In this document: one piece after another, positions 274 to 12,476 of the stretch
How positions within the stretch are numbered: the first letter of the stretch is position 1
Layout of the letters: the number at the start of each line of letters is the position of its first letter
NCBI GenBank assembly: GCA_017541025.1
Contig: JAFXZY010000064.1
Coordinates: 1 to 53,560, forward strand
DNA: 53,560 nt
Origin: Bacteroidaceae bacterium
Lineage (GTDB): Bacteria > Bacteroidota > Bacteroidia > Bacteroidales > Bacteroidaceae
Reading direction: 5' to 3'
Notes under the pieces: model-generated
Told to the model about the DNA's origin: nothing
What the model saw: the letters and a program-made list of their open reading frames with translations, nothing else
Database searches by the model: none
Translations under genes and position numbers: made by a program

Positions 274-516
274 AAAAAAAAGTAGCGTGCTTCTCTTTTA
301 AAGGGAGGCACGCTTCATTTTATATAAAACCGCACTGGTGATGTGATGAAACTCCGAAAGAACAAGTTTTGAGTGCTCGCAGCTTTTGTAATCCACCGAC
401 TCAAAGGTTACCCTTCACAGGGCGTGGCCCGCCATTAGCATGCGAAGCGTTCTCGGTTTCATAAATATTACTGATGAGTATCCCGATCTAACCAGTGCGG
501 TATTTTGTCTCATCTT
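274..516 (-). ncRNA. Structured ncRNA downstream of rplT, candidate Bacteroidales-1 RNA
   Basis: A minus-strand promoter (TATCTTTG, 523-530 in reverse) and the terminator at 284-314 bracket about 240 nt without a credible ORF. The ends pair perfectly over 11 bp: ACCGCACTGGT at 329-339 and its complement at 491-501. Inside, on the RNA strand, ATGAAAC pairs with GTTTCAT, GAAC with GTTC, and there are short hairpins GGGC-CAC-GCCC and AAGG-GTAA-CCTT. From memory, the Bacteroidales-1 motif is defined by a Bacteroidetes promoter, a terminator and a usual position next to the L20 gene, which fits. Its role is not established; a 6S-like role is only an idea suggested by the long closing stem. The strand choice rests on promoter and U-tract. 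Confidence 0.65.
284..314. terminator. Bidirectional intrinsic terminator downstream of rplT
   Basis: AGCGTGC at 284-290 pairs with GCACGCT at 308-314, extended inward by TTCTC/GGGAG. On the minus strand the stem is followed by eight T residues (274-281 read in reverse). On the plus strand the tail is TCATTTTAT. It can therefore end both rplT and the convergent minus-strand RNA. Confidence 0.85.
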
Positions 517-635: not shown

Positions 636-3314
636 ATGAAATTTCACTTTTCAATCGAATATCGTACCGAATGGGGCCAACAGGTTGGTGTTGTCATCTC
701 ACGTTACATGATAGGTGGAAGGTGTATCACAGAACATATTCTGCTTGATACACAGGATGGATTGTTGTGGAAAGGCGAGGTGTTTTATAATAACAATGAC
801 ACTCAGTCCTTCTCATACCAATATGTAATTTATGAAAATGGCGTGATTGTACGTCGCGAATGGAACCTTGTTCCACGTGCGTTCAATGCCTCTCCCAATC
901 ATGTCTTCATCTTCTCTGATGCCTGGCGCGATATTCCTCTCAGTAACCACATGTACAGTTCTGCCTATACTAACTGTATATCTGGTGTGCCTCCCCAGCA
1001 GGCTTTCTTGGCATATTTCAGTAAGACGCTTGTCTTTCGTATTCAGGCACCTCAGTTGCGCTCAGGTCAGGTGCTGGCTCTGGTAGGCAGCATTCCTCAG
1101 CTGGGCACTTGGGAACCACGCTATTCATTGCGAATGTCGCGTGCCGGTATTAATGAATGGGTACTTGCTATCAGTGCCGAGGGCGTAGACACGCCATTCC
1201 AATATAAATATGTAATACTGGATGAGGAAACAGGAAATCTCATTGCCTGGGAAGAGGGTGACAACCGCCATTCTCCCAACTACTCAGTTGAGCCAAACAG
1301 AATCATTGTCTTGTCAGATAATATTCTTCATCTCTCCGAAGGCCGATGGCGTACGGCAGGGCTTGTAGTTCCCGTATTCTCTTTACGTAGTGAACAGAGT
1401 CAGGGCGTAGGTGATTTTGGCGACCTCTGCAAAATGACCGATTGGGCAGAACGGGCAGGAATGCATGTTATTCAGCTTTTGCCCATCTATGATATCACCC
1501 AGACGCATACCGATGCTGACAGTTATCCGTATAACAGCATCAGCATATACGCGCTGCATCCCATGTACATAGATATAAGGCAGCTACCCGCTATTGAAGA
1601 TAAGGATTTTATGCAGGAGTATGAGAAGGATAGGGCTGCTTTAAATGCAACGGTGCAAATGCAATATGCCAAGGTAAATGCACTTAAGCATCGTTACCTC
1701 CGAAGGCTTTACCAGCAGCAGGCATCTGATTTGCTCGATGATGTTGGCTATGTCACATTCTGTCAGAAGAATAACGACTGGCTGCTTCCCTATACAGTCT
1801 ATAGTCTGCTTCGCGACGAATACGGCACCTGCGATTTCAATCAGTGGCCGGAATATAGCAAATATAATGAGCCTCAGATTCTTTCCTTTGCTAAGGAGCA
1901 TCAGCCACAGTTGGGATATTATGCCTTTGTTCAGTATCTTCTGCACAAGCAACTGTCTGCAGCTACAGAGTATGCTCATAGGCATAAGGTTGTCTTTAAG
2001 GGCGATATTCCCATTGGCATCAGTCGGTATAGCGTGGAAGCCTGGCACGAGCCATATTATTTCCACATGAACAGTCAGGCAGGTGCTCCACCAGATGATT
2101 TCAGCATTACAGGTCAGAACTGGGGATTCCCTACGTATAACTGGGAGCGAATGGCACAGGACGGATACCGATGGTGGGTTCGTCGCCTCCAGAAGATGGC
2201 CGAATACTTCGATGCTTATCGCATAGATCACGTCTTAGGTTTCTTCCGTATCTGGCAGATACCACTTCATAGCGTACAGGGACTTCTCGGATATTTCTCT
2301 CCCTCTCTTCCCTTGAGTGCCGACGAGATAGAACGCTATGGCCTGCGATACCGTTATGACTTCTTCACCCGCCCCTATATTACCGATAGTGTGTTGACGC
2401 AGATTTTCGGGTCCGAAGCCGTTAAGGTTGCCAAGAACTTCCTGATAGATTGCTGCGACGGAACCTATGACCTTAAAGAGGAATTCTCTACCCAGCGTAA
2501 GGTAATGGCATACTTCGAGGGCTCAACTAAGAAGAAAGCTCCACTGTATCGCGATGGGTTGTTTAAACTCATCAATAATGTTCTCTTTATAGCTGATGAC
2601 CAGAATCCTCAGTTGCTTCATCCTCGTATTTCTGTTCAGTCAGAGAGCGTATTCCAGTCACTTTCGGCCGAGGAACAAAAGGCATTCAATAATCTTTACG
2701 AGGATTATTTCTATCATCGTCATAACGACTTCTGGTATGCTCACGCCATGAAGAAACTTCCCATCCTTGTACAGAGTACACGTATGCTGGTTTGTGCCGA
2801 GGATTTGGGAATGGTGCCTTCGTGTGTAGCCCCCGTATTGGATAACCTTAAGATTCTCTCACTCGAGATTCAGACCATGCCCAAGGCCGTTGGTCAGACC
2901 TTTGCCCGTCTCTCAGACAATCCTTATCGTAGTGTGGCAACTATCTTCACGCATGATATGCCAACTTTACGCGGATGGTGGCAAGAGGATTATCAGCGTG
3001 CTCAGCGTTATTATAATCAGGTACTCCAGCATAAGGGTTTTGCACCAGAGCAAATCTCAGGAGAATTGTGCGAGGAAATCGTGGCACGTCATTTGGCGTG
3101 TCCCTCCATGCTTTGTCTCATCAGTCTACAGGATTGGCTTTCCATCGACGAGGGCGTTCGCTTCTCCAATATCGAAGCCGAGCGAATAAATGTGCCCGCT
3201 AATCCTAAGAACTATTGGGGTTATCGTATGCACCTTAACATCGAAGAGCTCCGATCCAATGCAGAGCTTACTTCGCGCATACAACATCTGATTTCCAATA
3301 GCGGTCGATCTTAG
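636..3314 (+). CDS. malQ: 4-alpha-glucanotransferase (amylomaltase), GH77, with two N-terminal starch-binding domains
   Basis: An 892-aa enzyme that moves alpha-1,4-glucan segments between maltodextrins in cytoplasmic starch and glycogen metabolism. Residues about 1-110 and 125-235 look like two CBM20 starch-binding domains. The GH77 barrel follows from about residue 250. Visible catalytic segments are FDAYRIDHVLGFFRIW (nucleophile Asp), VCAEDLGMVPSCV (acid/base Glu) and FTHDMPTLRGWW (third acid). The length is typical of the long Bacteroidetes form and much longer than the roughly 500-aa thermophilic amylomaltases. The start at 636 follows a promoter at 605-612. Its stop overlaps that of the convergent mltG by 4 bp. 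No signal peptide is seen. Confidence 0.95.
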   Translation: MKFHFSIEYRTEWGQQVGVVISRYMIGGRCITEHILLDTQDGLLWKGEVFYNNNDTQSFSYQYVIYENGVIVRREWNLVPRAFNASPNHVFIFSDAWRDIPLSNHMYSSAYTNCISGVPPQQAFLAYFSKTLVFRIQAPQLRSGQVLALVGSIPQLGTWEPRYSLRMSRAGINEWVLAISAEGVDTPFQYKYVILDEETGNLIAWEEGDNRHSPNYSVEPNRIIVLSDNILHLSEGRWRTAGLVVPVFSLRSEQSQGVGDFGDLCKMTDWAERAGMHVIQLLPIYDITQTHTDADSYPYNSISIYALHPMYIDIRQLPAIEDKDFMQEYEKDRAALNATVQMQYAKVNALKHRYLRRLYQQQASDLLDDVGYVTFCQKNNDWLLPYTVYSLLRDEYGTCDFNQWPEYSKYNEPQILSFAKEHQPQLGYYAFVQYLLHKQLSAATEYAHRHKVVFKGDIPIGISRYSVEAWHEPYYFHMNSQAGAPPDDFSITGQNWGFPTYNWERMAQDGYRWWVRRLQKMAEYFDAYRIDHVLGFFRIWQIPLHSVQGLLGYFSPSLPLSADEIERYGLRYRYDFFTRPYITDSVLTQIFGSEAVKVAKNFLIDCCDGTYDLKEEFSTQRKVMAYFEGSTKKKAPLYRDGLFKLINNVLFIADDQNPQLLHPRISVQSESVFQSLSAEEQKAFNNLYEDYFYHRHNDFWYAHAMKKLPILVQSTRMLVCAEDLGMVPSCVAPVLDNLKILSLEIQTMPKAVGQTFARLSDNPYRSVATIFTHDMPTLRGWWQEDYQRAQRYYNQVLQHKGFAPEQISGELCEEIVARHLACPSMLCLISLQDWLSIDEGVRFSNIEAERINVPANPKNYWGYRMHLNIEELRSNAELTSRIQHLISNSGRS

Positions 3315-5741: not shown

Positions 5742-5773
5742 TTTGCTTGTATAAAAAAAAAATCCTATTTTTG
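5742..5773 (+). promoter_or_regulatory. Full Bacteroidetes promoter (-33 and -7) of the long structured RNA
   Basis: TTTG at 5742-5745, exactly 20 bp, then TATTTTTG at 5766-5773. This is as good a match to the phylum consensus as those of ileS and ssb. Transcription should begin near 5779. Confidence 0.8.
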
Positions 5774-5778
5774 CGACG

Positions 5779-6114
5779 ACTAAGCCAGCCTAAAAGGGCG
5801 GGTGAGGTCAAAATCTTATTGGAACAGAGACCACAAAGCCGTTTGTAGGGCTGGTCTCGAAAAGGCGTTTACGGACGTTATCATTCTGTAATCTCAAATC
5901 TCGCAAATTTGAATCCAAGTACAGAATATAATGCAACGTGACGCTTACGTGGGTAGATTATATCCCAACTATTGCTTTATATAATAATGTAAAGCATTAA
6001 GTTGTATATATGGTCTCTTGGCGTGGGCTGGCTGCGTTGCTTATCCTTACTTGGAGGCAATGCGAGAGCCTGAGATTAGGGATGGGCAGAAGTAGTGACT
6101 CCCATGCCTTTTTT
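5779..6114 (+). ncRNA. Long structured RNA or leader of unknown class
   Basis: About 335 nt between a consensus promoter and an intrinsic terminator, with no open frame of note. Pairings by eye: AGCCAGCC (5783-5790) with GGCTGGCT (6026-6033), closing a multibranch domain; GAGACCA (5827-5833) with TGGTCTC (5852-5858); ATTCTGTA (5883-5890) with TACAGAAT (5920-5927), capped by TCAAAT/ATTTGA and flanked by ACGTT/AACGT and GCGT/ACGC; CAACT (5966-5970) with AGTTG (6000-6004), enclosing TGCTTTA/TAAAGCA; GCGTTGC (6034-6040) with GCAATGC (6057-6063). The terminator is GGGATGGG (6079-6086) with CCCATGCC (6101-6108), then TTTTTT. I found no hallmark of tmRNA, RNase P RNA, SRP RNA, or the common riboswitches. 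It lies 72 bp before the outer-membrane gene and may be its leader. Confidence 0.7.
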
Positions 6115-6185
6115 ATTTCCATAACCTAACCATGATTATAAACCGCTGACGTGGGAGTTCGGAGGCATTTTATTCTAAAAATGCT

Positions 6186-6718
6186 ATGAATAAAGAGTCT
6201 TTAGTTCAAAAAAAGGTTATACAGATTATTGTTTATACTGTTGTGTTATTTTGTATGCCTTTGATAAGTAATGCGCAAGATGATCGTAAAGCGTTTACCT
6301 TTGAAGTGGGATACGCGGCTTCCACATTTGATGATGTTAAACTTTCTGGCAGTTATGGAATTCTCTGACTGGGTTACCATGGCAAATCAAGAGTAATTTT
6401 TATGCAGGTTACTATTTGTCTCCGTTAAATTTTAACTTCGGCTTGGTTGATAGCGATTATACAAGCGATGTTATCAAACTTGGCCCTGCTTTAGGCTATT
6501 ATTTTAAACCGACCATTTTTGTTACTTTACCTGTTGCAGCTTTATGTAATGTACATTTTCACGGTTCAGATACCCAATTGGCATGGGGCATGGAAATTTC
6601 ACCAACCTTTTATGTAGGTAGCAAAAAATTTGGTTTGTATGCAGGTCCTATGCTAACTGTCGGATTTACAGGTGGGACAAAAGCGGATTTCGGTTTCAAG
6701 GCAGGTATTTACTTTTAA
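6186..6718 (+). pseudogene. Small outer-membrane beta-barrel protein, interrupted by a frameshift
   Basis: The first frame (6186-6368) gives a signal peptide ending LISNAQ, then FTFEVGYAASTFDDVKLSGS, and stops at TGA 6366-6368. The protein resumes in the -1 frame, LPWQIKSNFYAGYYLSPLNF and onward to 6718, ending in FGFKAGIYF, an aromatic end typical of barrels. Joined, it is about 177 aa with alternating strands, a porin-like or OmpW/OmpA-barrel-sized protein. The shift must lie around 6355-6370. No classical slippery heptamer is visible, so a mutation or assembly error is more likely than programmed shifting. It is the first protein gene after the structured RNA and precedes the cysteine-rich precursor by 37 bp, so it may be part of that locus. 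Confidence 0.7.
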
Positions 6719-6755: not shown

Positions 6756-7454
6756 ATGGACGGAAAGAAAAAAAATGATGAACTCCACTCTAGACGTGAG
6801 TTCTTCAAGAATGCAGCAAAGCGGGTGCTTCCAATCATTGGTGCTATTGCGTTGTCTAATCCTATTATTCAAGCCGCCGCACCTGAAACACCTGTAAATA
6901 GCTGTCGAGGTAATTGTATGGGGGGATGTTATATTGGTTGTTCAGGTACTTGTTATGGAGGATGTACTGGTGGATGTAAAGAATCATGTCACCATACATG
7001 TACAGGATATTGTGTAGGTACTTGCCAAGGAAATTGTACAGGATCTTGCCAAGGAAGTTGTTCTCTTGATTGTGGTGGTGGTTGTGGTAATGGATGCTCT
7101 GGATCATGTACAGGTTCATGTGCAGGTTCTGCTGATGCGGTTCACAATTGTTCTAACTGCAACACTGTTTGTACGTCTACTTGTAAAGATGGATGTCAAG
7201 AATCATGTACAGGTGGTTGTAAGACAGGATGTGATACAAGTTGTAATGATACTTGTTACAAAGGATGCAAGACTTCTTGCGACTCATCATGCAAGGAAAC
7301 ATGCAAAGGAGGATGTAAAGGCGATTGTCAGGGAAGTTGTTCTAATGGATGCTATACTGGATGTAAGGAAAATTGTTATAATGTTTGTAGAGGTAGTTGT
7401 AAAGGCTTTTGCTGGGGGTATATGAATTTTAATCCATACCCAAGACTTCCCTAA
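6756..7454 (+). CDS. Cys-Xaa-Xaa-Xaa repeat precursor protein with twin-arginine-like leader (radical SAM target)
   Basis: A 232-aa RiPP-type precursor. Residues 1-48 are a leader: SRREFFK (residues 12-18) matches the Tat consensus S-R-R-x-F-L-K, then a hydrophobic LPIIGAIALSNPIIQ segment and an AAA site. From residue 50 cysteine occurs every fourth residue: 19 cysteines at 50-122, a linker ADAVHN, one at 132, then 22 at 135-219, 42 in all. Residues between are Gly, Ser, Thr in the first block and richer in Lys, Asp and Glu in the second. From memory, NCBI names this class 'Cys-Xaa-Xaa-Xaa repeat radical SAM target protein'. The adjacent maturases support it. Tat export of a modified product is inference. 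Confidence 0.88.
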   Translation: MDGKKKNDELHSRREFFKNAAKRVLPIIGAIALSNPIIQAAAPETPVNSCRGNCMGGCYIGCSGTCYGGCTGGCKESCHHTCTGYCVGTCQGNCTGSCQGSCSLDCGGGCGNGCSGSCTGSCAGSADAVHNCSNCNTVCTSTCKDGCQESCTGGCKTGCDTSCNDTCYKGCKTSCDSSCKETCKGGCKGDCQGSCSNGCYTGCKENCYNVCRGSCKGFCWGYMNFNPYPRLP

Positions 7455-7456
7455 TA

Positions 7457-8692
7457 ATGTGTTTCGGTATGGAGGCTATTATTAAGAGTCAAAATGAGCA
7501 ATGGCGGTCTGGAATTGCAAAAGGAATTACGTTCATTGTTACAAAGGACTGCCAGTTAGCTTGCAAATATTGCTATTTGGTTGGCAAGAACTCCAAGGAG
7601 CGTATGCCTTGGAGTATTGCCAAGCAAACTGTTGATTATATTCTTGACCATGAAAATGACTTCAAAGAGGAATCGGTAATTTGGGATTTCATCGGTGGCG
7701 AACCATTCTTGGAGATAGACCTTATTGACAAGATTTGCGACTATATCAAGATGGAAATGTTCCGTCGAAACCATCATTGGTTCAATTCCTATCGCTTCTC
7801 TTTTTCCACAAATGGTATCAACTACCACGAGGAGAAAATTCAGCAATTCATTGAGAAGAATCGCAACCATCTGAGCATAGGCATCACTATCGACGGCACA
7901 CGGCAGAAGCATGACCTTAACCGTGTATATAAGAATTCAGAGCGCGGGTCGTATGATGATGTGGTCAAGAATATTCCGTTGTGGCAGTTCCAGTTCCCTG
8001 GAATGGGAACAAAGGTCACCATCAGCAGTGCCGACCTTCCTTATATCAAAGAGAGTGTGCTGCATTTGTTCTCCCTTGGCATTCCAGAAGTGAACATTAA
8101 TTGTGTTTTTGAGGATGTTTGGAAAGAAGGCGATGACCTTATCTTTCAGAATCAACTGATAGAACTTGCAGATGCCATCATTGACAATGGATTATACGAA
8201 AACAATGTCTGCTCGTTCTTTCAAGAGCATTTAGGTAAACCTCTCGACAGGAAACTGCAAAATCAGAACTGGTGTGGTGCAGGCAAGATGTTAGCTGTTG
8301 ATGCTGCAGGCATCTTTTATCCCTGTACGCGCTTTGCCCAGTACTCTTTGCGCGACAAGAAAGCTTGGATTATTGGCAATGTTAATGAAGGCATTGATAA
8401 GAACAAATTGCGCGGATTCCTAACGTTAGACCGTTGCACACAGAGCACGAAAGAATGTATCGACTGCGAAGTGGCAGAAGGTTGTGCCTGGTGTCAGGGA
8501 GAAAACTACGATGCTGCCGACACCTGCACCGCATTCCAACGTTCAACTGCTATCTGCAAGATGCACAAAGCACGTGTAAGAGCTAACAATTACTATTGGA
8601 ATAAGCTCTTCCGCAAACTGGAACTGGAAGGAATAGAGAGAGAACGCGCAAATGAACATGTGAAACAACCCCAAATGAAGGATATATGCTGA
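7457..8692 (+). CDS. Radical SAM/SPASM peptide maturase for the CXXX-repeat precursor
   Basis: A 411-aa enzyme starting 2 bp after the precursor stop (ATG 7457, with an alternative ATG at 7469). The radical SAM cluster motif is CQLACKYC, with Cys 32, 36 and 39 as CX3CX2C; FIGGEPFLE is the GGE motif binding SAM. The C-terminal half carries SPASM-type cysteines: NWCGAGK, FYPCTRF, RCTQSTKECIDC, EGCAWCQG, DTCTAF, AICKMH, expected to bind auxiliary Fe-S clusters as in anSME and thioether-forming enzymes. It probably installs carbon-centred crosslinks on the Cys repeats; the actual chemistry is not known from sequence. It overlaps the next gene by 7 bp, implying coupled translation. Confidence 0.88.
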   Translation: MCFGMEAIIKSQNEQWRSGIAKGITFIVTKDCQLACKYCYLVGKNSKERMPWSIAKQTVDYILDHENDFKEESVIWDFIGGEPFLEIDLIDKICDYIKMEMFRRNHHWFNSYRFSFSTNGINYHEEKIQQFIEKNRNHLSIGITIDGTRQKHDLNRVYKNSERGSYDDVVKNIPLWQFQFPGMGTKVTISSADLPYIKESVLHLFSLGIPEVNINCVFEDVWKEGDDLIFQNQLIELADAIIDNGLYENNVCSFFQEHLGKPLDRKLQNQNWCGAGKMLAVDAAGIFYPCTRFAQYSLRDKKAWIIGNVNEGIDKNKLRGFLTLDRCTQSTKECIDCEVAEGCAWCQGENYDAADTCTAFQRSTAICKMHKARVRANNYYWNKLFRKLELEGIERERANEHVKQPQMKDIC

Positions 8693-9624
8693 AATACCTT
8701 GTGATATTACTCGATGACACGAGTACATCTTTCTGCCATTACGATAATCGAAAGTCAGAGTCCCGATTGATGCCCATTGAGACACTGAAGGGTGGCATTC
8801 GCTTTGGCATGATGGAAAATCTTATGATTCAGTTTGTATATCCTGTGGACGCATTGCCGTTGGAACATCTTAAAGCAATTGAGACGATAGACCATGGCGT
8901 TATTGCTCCGTCAGGAAGTCCCGTAAGTGCTGACGTTGTTGTGTTTAACGATTGGGATACATTCCTAAAGTTTGACTATCCAGATATGGGCACTTTCGTG
9001 CTTAGAACGGACTCGAAGCAACTTTGTGAGAACCCAAAATACCTCGAATCGGTTCTCTATCAGGTTACACGACTCAACATTGTGTTAACGGATATAGAAA
9101 CAATGAATGACGAGGACTTTGAAAAATACGACAGGTTCTTGGATGAGTTGAGGGGTATAATGAAAAGGCTTTATCTAAAAGGCTATCAGACGCAGTGCAA
9201 CCTGATAACTGACAGGATTGTCCTCGATGCAATGAATAATTGCAATGCAGGAACGGAAAGCATAACCTTAGCTCCAAATGGCAAATTCTACATCTGTCCT
9301 GGTTTTTATTATGATGGGTTGGACGCAGTTGGAAGTCTTGAAGATGGTCTTGACATAAAAAATCCGCAACTTTATCGGCTTGACCATGCACCTCTTTGCC
9401 GGATATGCGAAGCTTATCACTGCAAGCGTTGTATATGGCTTAATCAAAAGACTACGATTGAAGTAAATACGCCAAGCCATGAGCAATGCGTTGTAGCGCA
9501 TATGGAGCGTAATCAAGCCCGTTTGCTCTTGAACGAATTGCAAGACAGAGGTATTTACGACAAGAAACAAGAAATAAAGGAAATCTCATATCTCGACCCG
9601 TTTGATGTAAAAGATGAATGGTAA
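8686..9624 (+). CDS. SPASM-domain partner lacking the radical SAM core (CXXX-repeat peptide maturase)
   Basis: 312 aa. No CX3CX2C cluster motif exists in the N-terminal half. The C-terminal part keeps SPASM-like signatures: NNCNAGTESITLAPNGKFYI followed by CPGFYYDG, PLCRICEAYHCKRCIWLN, and HEQCVVAHMERN. It thus looks like a radical SAM/SPASM relative that has lost the catalytic core and kept the auxiliary cluster or peptide-binding end. From memory NCBI calls a family in this position 'CXXX repeat peptide maturase'. It overlaps the radical SAM gene by 7 bp and precedes a second precursor by 7 bp, so both likely act together. Confidence 0.8.
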   Translation: MLKYLVILLDDTSTSFCHYDNRKSESRLMPIETLKGGIRFGMMENLMIQFVYPVDALPLEHLKAIETIDHGVIAPSGSPVSADVVVFNDWDTFLKFDYPDMGTFVLRTDSKQLCENPKYLESVLYQVTRLNIVLTDIETMNDEDFEKYDRFLDELRGIMKRLYLKGYQTQCNLITDRIVLDAMNNCNAGTESITLAPNGKFYICPGFYYDGLDAVGSLEDGLDIKNPQLYRLDHAPLCRICEAYHCKRCIWLNQKTTIEVNTPSHEQCVVAHMERNQARLLLNELQDRGIYDKKQEIKEISYLDPFDVKDEW

Positions 9625-9631
9625 TATAACT

Positions 9632-9916
9632 ATGGAAGAAAAGAAAACAAGACGAGAATTGTTCCGAAGAGCAGCAAGGATACTTCCAATCATTGCGTTG
9701 GCAAGTATTCCTAGCATTCCGATAATAGCGGATCGAGCAAATGATTGCAAAGGAGCATGTGATGGAAAATGCATTGGTTCCGCGAAAACAGTCACAGACA
9801 CTTTCCCCCGACCCAAATGTGATAGTAGTAAGTGTGAAAACAAAAAAATTAACAAAAATAAAGAAAAATATGGAAAGAAAATTAGTTGGTCAAGTGACCG
9901 AAGAAGAGAAGAATGA
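9632..9916 (+). CDS. Second, shortened CXXX-type precursor with the same leader
   Basis: 94 aa from ATG 9632 (an in-frame ATG at 9614 overlaps the upstream stop). The leader TRRELFRRAARILPIIALAS copies that of the 232-aa precursor: twin Arg, aromatic, basic, then the LPII hydrophobic run. The core has only five cysteines: CKGACDGKC in CXXX register, then two more in PKCDSSKCEN. A Lys/Asn-rich tail follows and overlaps the next start by 47 bp. It may be a decayed precursor or a short natural one. No ribosome-binding site decides the start. Confidence 0.65.
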   Translation: MEEKKTRRELFRRAARILPIIALASIPSIPIIADRANDCKGACDGKCIGSAKTVTDTFPRPKCDSSKCENKKINKNKEKYGKKISWSSDRRREE

Positions 9917-10436: not shown

Positions 10437-12476
10437 ATGAACAAAAAGAATTTTTATGAGAAGTTGCTGGCCATCATGATGGTCACAATTATGGGTGTTT
10501 TTCTCGCCTCATGCAGTGATGATGACAACAACAAAGAGAATGGAGGCGGTAACAGTTCCGATATCATACAGACGCTTAAATCTAACAAATGGATTACAAA
10601 AGACTTTTCATACGGTGAAGGAGCGAATAACCATGCTTGGGTAGATGATGAAACGTGGACTTTATATTTCACATCAGATAATTCCGGCATTAGCTATTGG
10701 ATACAGAAAGATTATGATACAGACCTTGGTAATTCAACAACCAAGGATTATTCTTTGTTCGAATATAAAGTGTCTGGAAACAAAGTAACGCTTACTTATG
10801 AGGATTGGACCACATTGACTTTATATTATCAAGGTGGCTATCTTACTACAGAAAGTATGGGAACGATATTCGAACCATCACGAATGACATATAACGACTA
10901 TGAGTTTGTAAAAACCTTAGGTCCTCAGACAGGGTCAGGTGGGAATGATGTGAGGTATTCATATGACGACAGGACACAAAGGCTAACTATAAGTGGTAAA
11001 GGTAGAATGAATGATTATACTGCTTCTAATCAGCCTTGGTATGATAAAGTCATTTCGGAAATAGTAATTGAAAATGGCATCACCTATATAGGAAGTCATG
11101 CATTTCATAAGTTGAAATGGGGTAGTAATGTTTCCAAAATAGAATTACCCAATTCCATTGAGGAAATCGGAGACTATGCATTCTGCGACTTAGGTATTGA
11201 AGAATTTATGGTTCCGACAGGAGTAAGAAGGATTGGAAATTATGCTTTTTCTGATTGTGATTACTTAAAGAAAGTGAATTTTTACGGATGTGATGCATTA
11301 GAAGAAATAGGTGACTATGCTTTTGCATTTTGCCCTATCAATTTGGGCTATTTTACAGTTCCTAAAAATGTAAAGAAAATAGGCTCCATGGCATTTATTT
11401 CTTCTTCATGTAATAGTTTGACATTGAATGATAAATTAGAATCAATAGGTAACGCTGTATTTGTGAAAATCTCAGCATCCAAGTTAGAAATACCCAATTC
11501 CGTAAAATATATAGGTTCACAGGCATTTAGAGGAAGCTTTAGTGAAATTAGGATTGGAACAGGGCTAACTTCTATAGAAAACATGCCATTTGTGTCATCA
11601 AAGAGTGGAAATATGTATGTAAATTTGGGTATACCATTAGAGATACCTTCATATAATTATATTATATTAAACACTAATGGCGATAATGCAGCTGGTTCAT
11701 GGACGTTATATGTTCCTAAAGGATGTAAATCAGCTTACCAGAAAGCAAATGGCTGGAAAGCATTTAAGTCAATTAATGAAGATTCATCTTTGACAAGTGG
11801 GAATGGTATGCCTGACAACAATGATCAAGAATGGGTTGCAACCGGAACAGTTCAAGGTCACGATTACGTAGACCTAGGACTGCCGAGTGGCACATTTTGG
11901 GCAACAACGAATATCGGTGCAGAAAAGCCAGAAGACTATGGTGATTACTTTGCTTGGGGTGAGACAATAGGGTACAACGGAGGAAAGAAATCATTCAATT
12001 GGAGTACTTATAAGCATTGTGGTGGTTCCTCTACCTCAATGCTGAAATATTGCACTAATAGCGAATTCGGAAATGTTGATAACAAAACGAAACTTGAGCC
12101 AATAGACGATGCCGCTACGGTTATCTGGGGTGAGGTTTGGCATATGCCGACCGAAGATCAGTTCGAGGAATTAATAAACAGCAGTTATACAACTTTAGAA
12201 ATGACAATTGTGAATGGCGTAAATGGATTAAAGATAACAAGTAAAAGTAATATGAAAAGTATTTTCTTGCCCGCTGCAGGCTATCGCAAAGGAACGTCTC
12301 TCGATTACGATAAACAAGATGGTCGTTACTGGTCGCGTTCACTCTCGATAGAGTATCATGGGTACGTTCTGGCGTTCGGCCTCGCTCCCCATTCGTACGG
12401 CAAGGGTTATTCTGGTTCTCTCAACATCAGAGGCAGTACACGCTTCTATGGTTATTCTGTCCGGCCTGTATTTTAA
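10437..12476 (+). CDS. Surface lipoprotein with BspA-like leucine-rich repeats and C-terminal FISUMP domain
   Basis: 679 aa. A signal peptide ends in lipobox LASC with lipidated Cys 26, followed by an acidic SDDDNN tail that favours surface export in Bacteroidetes. Residues about 40-165 look lipocalin-like. About 185-450 hold BspA-type LRR_5 units such as ITYIGSHAFHKL, IEEIGDYAFCDL and VRRIGNYAFSDC. From about 470, YVDLGLPSGTFWATTNIGA begins a Fibrobacter-succinogenes-major-paralogous (FISUMP, C-type-lectin-like) domain with WHMPTEDQFEEL, LPAAGYR, GRYWSRSL and final GYSVRPVF. Such domains are frequent diversity-generating-retroelement targets. It is probably an adhesin or glycan-contact protein. 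It is AT-rich until the last 150 bp, where GC rises. Confidence 0.85.
   Translation: MNKKNFYEKLLAIMMVTIMGVFLASCSDDDNNKENGGGNSSDIIQTLKSNKWITKDFSYGEGANNHAWVDDETWTLYFTSDNSGISYWIQKDYDTDLGNSTTKDYSLFEYKVSGNKVTLTYEDWTTLTLYYQGGYLTTESMGTIFEPSRMTYNDYEFVKTLGPQTGSGGNDVRYSYDDRTQRLTISGKGRMNDYTASNQPWYDKVISEIVIENGITYIGSHAFHKLKWGSNVSKIELPNSIEEIGDYAFCDLGIEEFMVPTGVRRIGNYAFSDCDYLKKVNFYGCDALEEIGDYAFAFCPINLGYFTVPKNVKKIGSMAFISSSCNSLTLNDKLESIGNAVFVKISASKLEIPNSVKYIGSQAFRGSFSEIRIGTGLTSIENMPFVSSKSGNMYVNLGIPLEIPSYNYIILNTNGDNAAGSWTLYVPKGCKSAYQKANGWKAFKSINEDSSLTSGNGMPDNNDQEWVATGTVQGHDYVDLGLPSGTFWATTNIGAEKPEDYGDYFAWGETIGYNGGKKSFNWSTYKHCGGSSTSMLKYCTNSEFGNVDNKTKLEPIDDAATVIWGEVWHMPTEDQFEELINSSYTTLEMTIVNGVNGLKITSKSNMKSIFLPAAGYRKGTSLDYDKQDGRYWSRSLSIEYHGYVLAFGLAPHSYGKGYSGSLNIRGSTRFYGYSVRPVF
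12325..12476 (+). other. Variable-region-like 3' end of the FISUMP gene
   Basis: From GGTCGTTACTGGTCG to the stop the code is GC-richer than the AT-rich body of the gene. It encodes YWSRSL followed by a run of varied, surface-type residues and the invariant SVRPV end. This is the layout of diversity-generating-retroelement variable regions. No reverse transcriptase or template repeat is in the window, so the status is unproven. Confidence 0.4.

Follow-up and report, generated by a model that had tools for sequence, protein, structure and literature searches.

Riboswitches with terminator platforms are conserved RNAs that have their own promoter, carry mutually exclusive terminator and antiterminator helices, and adjoin the gene that they control. 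The leader described here appears to share this layout. It differs in having no match in Rfam (window copy and eight relatives), in its length of about 390 nt, and in the genes behind it, which are varied accessory genes and not those of one pathway. T-box leaders are large and exchange a terminator for an antiterminator, as we propose here; the T-box covariance model gave no match to the leader (window copy, by permissive search, and eight relatives), and neither amino-acid nor tRNA families are among the 25 downstream families listed as most frequent. In the cobalamin riboswitch, a loop pairing links the core to a hairpin near the ribosome-binding region. The K3 pairing of the leader (Table 1) resembles this arrangement; the leader (window copy and eight relatives) has no Rfam match to that riboswitch. 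Bacteroidales-1 / 6S RNA (RF01693) is also a structured RNA of Bacteroidales, with one copy in the window (322-502, minus strand); it is a separate Rfam hit, and the leader does not match its model. The two RNAs lie within a few kb of each other in the window and in Phocaeicola massiliensis (locus L093, RF01693 at 1052-1228, plus strand). HMP2_1881, a 108-bp candidate RNA found mostly in Bacteroidetes, is reported to lie often near radical SAM domains and to be expressed at all 13 places where its authors found it (Fremin & Bhatt, 2021; PMC8040213). The leader is likewise found in Bacteroidetes and, at some loci, near radical SAM genes, a likeness of description.

The window, that is, the whole stretch of 53,560 nt that was analysed from a Bacteroidaceae contig, contains the leader upstream of genes for a CXXX-repeat peptide (Table 1). 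We consider it probable that the element is a cis-acting transcription attenuator, consisting of a promoter and a bistable leader, roughly 390 nt long, whose end lies close to the start codon of the controlled gene. From the sequence, transcription is expected to start near 5780, and the full element extends to about 6168. The TTTG-N20 promoter reported by the first-pass annotation is present in the window, and the motif recurs in relatives: among 135 parsed elements of the 143 nonredundant ones (8 were unparsed), TAnnTTTG lies upstream in 121, against 15.3 expected from shuffles, and the full two-box form in 59, against 1.1 expected. The box is absent in 14 of the 135. A scan for sigma-70 promoters gave two promoter-like sites, compared with 1.7 in shuffles. 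The predicted fold of positions 5776-6118 has an energy of -132.1 kcal/mol (z -8.25), and none of 100 shuffles was equally low. The element had been said to hold no open reading frame, which is correct for frames of at least 40 aa on the plus strand and not for the minus strand, where two frames of 41-42 aa lie within the element and one of 57 aa extends across its start. Inspection by eye for shorter leader frames, below the 40 aa threshold of the plus-strand scan, found one with an ATG at 5931 in the window that is not visibly conserved.

Table 1. Positions of the leader, its putative helices and strands, and the genes behind it, in window coordinates.
Feature	Position	Strand	Remarks
Bacteroides-type promoter	5742..5773	+	TTTG (5742-5745)-N20-TATTTTTG (5766-5773); sequence read, motif kept in relatives
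Structured leader RNA up to U-tract	5776..6114	+	about 335 nt
P1 5' strand AGCCAGCC	5783..5790	+	pairs with 6026-6033
Switching strand AAAAGGCGT	5860..5868	+	P7 (5864-5868 with 5941-5945) or PA antiterminator (with 6104-6112)
P5 stem	5883..5927	+	ATTCTGT 5883-5889 / ACAGAAT 5921-5927; encloses P4
K1 5' strand TAATCTCA	5889..5896	+	pairs with 6071-6078
P4 local hairpin	5894..5912	+	TCAAA 5894-5898 / TTTGA 5908-5912; K2 5' strand in loop
K2 5' strand TCTCGCA	5899..5905	+	in P4 loop
K4 5' strand GCAACG	5933..5938	+	pairs with 6035-6040
P7 3' strand	5941..5945	+	pairs with 5864-5868
PT (terminator) 5' strand GGCGTGGG	6020..6027	+	pairs with 6101-6108
P1 3' strand GGCTGGCT	6026..6033	+	pairs with 5783-5790
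K4 3' strand CGTTGC	6035..6040	+	pairs with 5933-5938
P2 hairpin	6039..6087	+	6039-6046 / 6080-6087, with P3 6056-6058 / 6068-6070
K2 3' strand TGCGAGA	6061..6067	+	partner of 5899-5905
K1 3' strand TGAGATTA	6071..6078	+	pairs with 5889-5896
K3 strand ACTCCC	6098..6103	+	pairs with P6 loop GGGAGT
PT 3' strand CCCATGCC	6101..6108	+	followed by U-tract 6109-6114 (T6)
PA 3' strand ATGCCTTTT	6104..6112	+	pairs with AAAAGGCGT 5860-5868
P6 hairpin before start codon	6143..6166	+	loop GGGAGT 6153-6158 pairs with ACTCCC (K3)
First downstream reading frame, interrupted	6186..6718	+	pieces 6186-6368 and 6416-6718; secretion-signal-like start (by eye)
CXXX-repeat peptide precursor (TIGR04117)	6756..7454	+
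Radical SAM CXXX maturase (TIGR04115)	7457..8692	+
CXXX repeat peptide maturase (TIGR04119)	8686..9624	+

No family of Rfam 15 (4227 families) matched across the window element at gathering score, and a permissive search returned three hits, all far below gathering scores. The elements of eight relatives were likewise without a match at gathering scores. The description of the element as an unassigned structured RNA is supported. A literature search, judged by titles and the beginnings of abstracts, found no paper naming such an RNA. By Rfam 15 and this limited search, we regard the element as a novel family within an established kind of RNA (attenuator- or riboswitch-like leaders).

Using blastn with the window element, we identified relatives in 35 of 101 genomes, including the window's own, where a second copy has 84% identity. 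An exact pattern of the 3' core matched at least 119 stretches, the titles of which include Prevotella, Prevotellaceae, Bacteroidaceae, Bacteroides, Phocaeicola, Parabacteroides, Paraprevotella, Xylanibacter and Muribaculaceae, among others. Records of named strains with the element are those of Phocaeicola massiliensis DSM 17679, Bacteroides rodentium JCM 16496, B. congonensis, Paraprevotella clara YIT 11840 and Xylanibacter rarus. A covariance model (R1) built from 47 sequences of the 3' domain found five copies in the window's genome, only one of them in the window contig. With stricter filters and few candidates scored per genome, as applied to samples of more than 40 genomes, the model found hits in 31 of 41 genomes of the genus, in 54 of 294 Bacteroidales genomes (37 of the 180 genera sampled) and in 2 of 392 genomes across the phylum, both within Bacteroidales. 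Ten genomes with hits were searched more fully and have 1 to 11 copies each.

The collected loci come from blastn with the window element (L001-L031), from the exact 3'-core pattern (L032-L150) and from the 3'-domain covariance model (L151-L207). The pattern fixes the PT 5', K4 3'/P2 5' and P3/K2 3' strands in its rows. The structure of the model comprises PT, P2, P3 and P6 only, and its sequence profile also spans the 3' strands of K1, K2, K4 and PA. Neither used the 5' strands of K1, K2, K4, PA and P7, or any part of P5 and P4. Of 202 loci with a profile match, 14 had no core anchor or a weak profile match and were dropped; removal of repeats and near-repeats reduced the remaining 188 to 180 distinct and 143 nonredundant elements. 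The source records are mostly metagenome assemblies, and three loci on contigs of 5-16 kb labelled Clostridia, Lachnospiraceae and Clostridium (L052, L055, L109) are probably misbinned. By eye, the layout also seems preserved in three very divergent copies (L194, L195, L196), whose helix sequences differ for the most part.

As shown by sequence comparison, two predicted alternative folds share strands, and both are conserved by compensatory change. Fold A would be local: P1, P7, P5 and P4 would form in the 5' half, while the 3' half would make a PT-P2-P3 hairpin followed by the U-tract. In fold B, the nested long-range helices PA, K1, K2 and K4 would join the halves, with PA engaging the U-tract together with the lower part of the PT 3' strand. 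In an alignment of 55 diverse sequences out of 124 eligible, compared with 500 shuffles (a test inflated by the kinship of the sequences), fold B was paired in 95.5% of cells and had two-sided changes in 191 cells, against 66.5 when shuffled. Four of its five measures, including the covariation score, exceeded all 500 shuffles, and its pair types were reached by 16 shuffles. Fold A was paired in 93.7% of cells, with 162 two-sided changes against 55.8, and all five measures exceeded every shuffle. When partners were slid by 1-3 columns, both folds fell to 35-51% paired. Covariation among relatives, the test named by the first-pass annotation, is very strong, with the scores of both folds above all 500 shuffles. 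In our view, the helices that it saw, at least six, are a mixture of the two folds.

In the same alignment, PT was paired in 97.5% of cells, P7 in 94.2% (with two-sided changes in four of five pairs), P4 in 90.5%, and P5 in 87.6% at the consensus columns, from which the register in the window differs. K4 was paired in 98.5% of cells with low variation, K1 in 76.7% across eight columns and 90.5% across the inner five, and K2 has standard pairs in every one of its 385 cells. The weakest helix is PA, with 90.6% of cells paired, the key pair broken in 11 of 55 sequences, and two of five measures matched by shuffles (34 and 152 of 500). Its covariation score was 0.301, compared with 0.241 when shuffled, and none of 500 shuffles was as high; own against swapped partner strands gave a z of -7.8. 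For 125 elements counted of 136 parsed (7 of the 143 were left unparsed), the key PA dinucleotide agrees with its partner as GA/TC in 44, GG/CC in 19, GG/CT in 12 and AG/CT in 10, and breaks the pairing as GA/CC in 23, GA/CT in 4 and a few other forms. At three columns a single position suits both its P4 and its K1 partner in 41, 46 and 31 of 55 sequences, and at two others both its P7 and its PA partner in 42 of 55 and 45 of 54.

Mutual information with average-product correction yielded 49 pairs above 4.5 SD that are pairable in more than 70% of rows. The strongest pairable columns belong to K1 (up to 38.6 SD), K2 and P4, followed by P5, P2 and P7 (9.7 SD); PA and K4 have one pair each, at 5.0 SD. 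Some strongly covarying column pairs belong to neither fold, for example 85-209 (11.2 SD) and 77-260 (9.3 SD), which speaks against the two-fold reading. Across 143 elements, the duplex energy of K1 and K2 together was -41.6 kcal/mol for own strands and -29.4 kcal/mol for swapped strands (z -37), with the own partner beating all 40 sampled swaps in 90 elements. The same comparison gave z values of -15.1 for P2, -14.4 for P1, -10.5 for PT and -6.3 for P6/K3, against -2.8 for a control segment, and paired positions of P1 gave a z of 8.2. An early idea that GCGTT pairs with a loop AATGC was discarded by eye, as GCGTT varies while the loop does not follow.

Predicted minimum free energy (MFE) structures of the 55 whole elements contain at least two of PA, K1 and K2 in 50 cases and PA in 25; PT is present in none, and fold A is never the predicted minimum. 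When the halves were folded separately, P7 formed in 51 of 55 and PT in 40 of 55. Joining the halves gained a mean of 13.8 kcal/mol, compared with 7.7 for shuffled halves, and the gain was above the mean of an element's own shuffles in 49 of 55. For the window, the halves alone are predicted at -75.8 and -45.9 kcal/mol, the latter being the 3' half with the PT hairpin before T6, and the whole element, in fold B with PA, at -128.7 kcal/mol. Local hairpins that form first and a long-range fold that is the deeper minimum would look like a co-transcriptional switch, from which stopping and read-through may be surmised.

It is unlikely, though the local hairpins offer some grounds for it, that the leader is instead a static pseudoknotted RNA (a scaffold, ribozyme or protein-binding leader) in which K1 and K2 are kissing interactions on local hairpins. 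The K2 strands, paired in every cell, lie precisely within the P4 and P3 loops, so this helix is compatible with the local fold. Few nucleotides are shared between the folds outside PA, PT and P7, and some long-range helices could thus be kissing loops that coexist with local hairpins. Many alignment positions are nearly invariant, and only those 25 minimum structures contain PA. However, PA is incompatible with PT or P7 and K1 overlaps P4, and both sides of these conflicts covary; K4 also overlaps P2. A static RNA would likewise leave unexplained the terminator-like U-tract, as a run of at least four T follows PT in 164 of 180 elements (the other 16 have only 2-3 T).

PT and these T-runs together have the stem and U-run of an intrinsic terminator. 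The first-pass annotation had placed a terminator stem before T6; the T6 is correct, and the conserved stem is that of GGCGTGGG and CCCATGCC rather than one with the proposed 5' arm GGGATGGG (6079-6086). That arm is mostly the 3' strand of P2, and its conservation is better explained by P2 and PT. A simple terminator scan found one terminator-like site (0.5 in shuffles), which is not PT; the PT loop is too long for the scan.

The stretch 6098-6112 has three possible partners: the PT 5' strand, the switching strand through PA, and, through ACTCCC, the P6 loop. The complementarity reported between ACTCCCA (6098-6104) and TGGGAGT (6152-6158) is present and covaries, as at least 6 of 7 positions of K3 pair with their own partner in 117 of 142 relatives, compared with 52.5% for swapped partners. 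In those 117 the partner lies a median of 42 nt past the stem end. The further suggestion that this downstream strand is the antiterminator fails, since in the window GGGAGT begins 39 nt past the last T of the U-tract, on the wrong side of the terminator; the strand does not yet exist when termination is decided, and it cannot prevent it. K3 probably acts after read-through. On sequence grounds, the strand that can act as antiterminator is the upstream AAAAGGCGT, pairing with ATGCCTTTT; PA thus provides a covarying strand, transcribed earlier, that pairs with the terminator. The kind of switch, an attenuator with a terminator that shares a strand with an alternative helix, had probably been recognised correctly, and its antiterminator had been wrongly assigned. 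ATGCC (6104-6108) and GGCAT (6164-6168) are complementary as reported, and this pairing cannot be general, as ATGCC occurs there in only 22 of 142 relatives.

In the attenuator that we propose, the 5' half would be transcribed first and fold locally. The outcome would be set by whether this half, under some signal, holds its strands or exchanges them with the emerging 3' half. Fold A may stop transcription near 6114, and fold B may allow the polymerase to read through. After read-through, the P6 loop beside the start codon could pair with ACUCCC (K3). This pairing excludes full PT and may stabilise fold B or affect translation. If the proposal is correct, the leader would clearly exemplify, in nature, an RNA for which selection maintains two complete, competing folds.

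The distance from the PT stem end to the ATG has a median of 74 nt (quartiles 64 and 81.5, n=176), and conservation persists beyond the U-tract up to shortly before the ATG. Both features, together with the recurrence of some gene classes downstream, argue against a free-standing, trans-acting noncoding RNA behind which the gene is incidental. Its own promoter, the terminator-like end and several copies per genome would suit such an RNA, which we nevertheless consider very improbable.

The cassette seems to have moved or been re-used. Among pairs of elements that are at least 80% alike, 187 of 219 have no detected similarity in either flank, although part of this pattern may instead reflect strong constraint on the RNA itself. 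Closer inspection of 27 pairs, 25 from the 187 and two involving the window copy, shows similarity that begins 194 to 473 nt upstream of the core anchor and stops 100 to 200 nt past it, with the ATG mostly 157 to 173 nt past; in several pairs it already stops at the PT stem. The exact pattern had no match in viral contigs, and blastn with the window copy had none in plasmids or phages; at that sensitivity, nothing pointed to a phage or plasmid origin. An MITE-like mobile element inserting before genes by chance would fit the unrelated flanks, and is the least probable reading given these searches, the set distance to the ATG and helices that covary across Bacteroidales.

The copies mostly end shortly upstream of the start codons of unrelated genes, including CXXX-repeat precursors, BspA-like surface proteins, lipoproteins and some defence genes. 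We identified 128 downstream proteins (open reading frames of at least 45 aa, from nonredundant elements, starting within a set distance). They match 58 Pfam families, the largest being LRR_5 (BspA-type) with 12 proteins; AbiH, TRL and DUF2971 follow with 2 each among the best 25 families shown, and DNA methylase, kinase, SusC-like and other families have single matches. Five proteins match the CXXX target model TIGR04117. Control frames from the same loci (127, after one of 128 was removed as itself a downstream gene) match 160 families, with 3 LRR_5; part of this contrast in family number is length, as controls have at least 100 aa. Starts resembling signal peptides were found by a crude rule in 88 of 137 first frames and 204 of 508 others (both sets at least 100 aa). 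Similar small proteins recur directly behind the leader at five loci (L080, L101, L105, L136, L139), two of which were scanned and gave only sub-threshold helix-turn-helix matches.

A shared pathway, which is typical of riboswitches though not defining, was not found among the downstream genes, and these genes indicate no single signal. The family is widespread in Bacteroidales, where it precedes poorly characterised accessory genes, among them RiPP (peptide-modification) clusters and genes for surface proteins. Should it prove to be a switch, its ligand or trigger would reveal a signal that those genes share. Only tentatively, and with rather more doubt than confidence, can the leader be viewed as an order-wide class of large bistable riboswitch-like RNAs, in which a race between two complete folds subjects a dispersed regulon of genes for CXXX peptides, phage defence, lipoproteins and BspA-like surface proteins to a single shared signal, and which has spread as a portable promoter-plus-switch cassette.

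In the window, neither piece of the interrupted first frame matched a family. By eye, it looks like a secreted or outer-membrane protein split between different frames. Behind the maturases, a second short frame (9614-9916) is weakly similar to CXXX precursors (21.6 bits against a cut-off of 50), and is followed by a BspA-type LRR protein (10437-12476). The placement of the RNA before a Cys-peptide locus, as first described, is correct for the window and does not extend to the family, in which most copies precede other genes. CXXX-type proteins make up 10 of 176 first frames and 4 of 508 other frames. Of 15 TIGR04115 loci above cut-off in the 41 genomes of the genus, 9 are preceded by the RNA on their own strand (matched by eye), in eight cases within about 2 kb and in one at 4.4 kb; the remaining six are without it, and one of these is at a contig start. 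The genome of the window also has a divergent leader copy (L154) some 4.4 kb ahead of a second CXXX radical SAM maturase.
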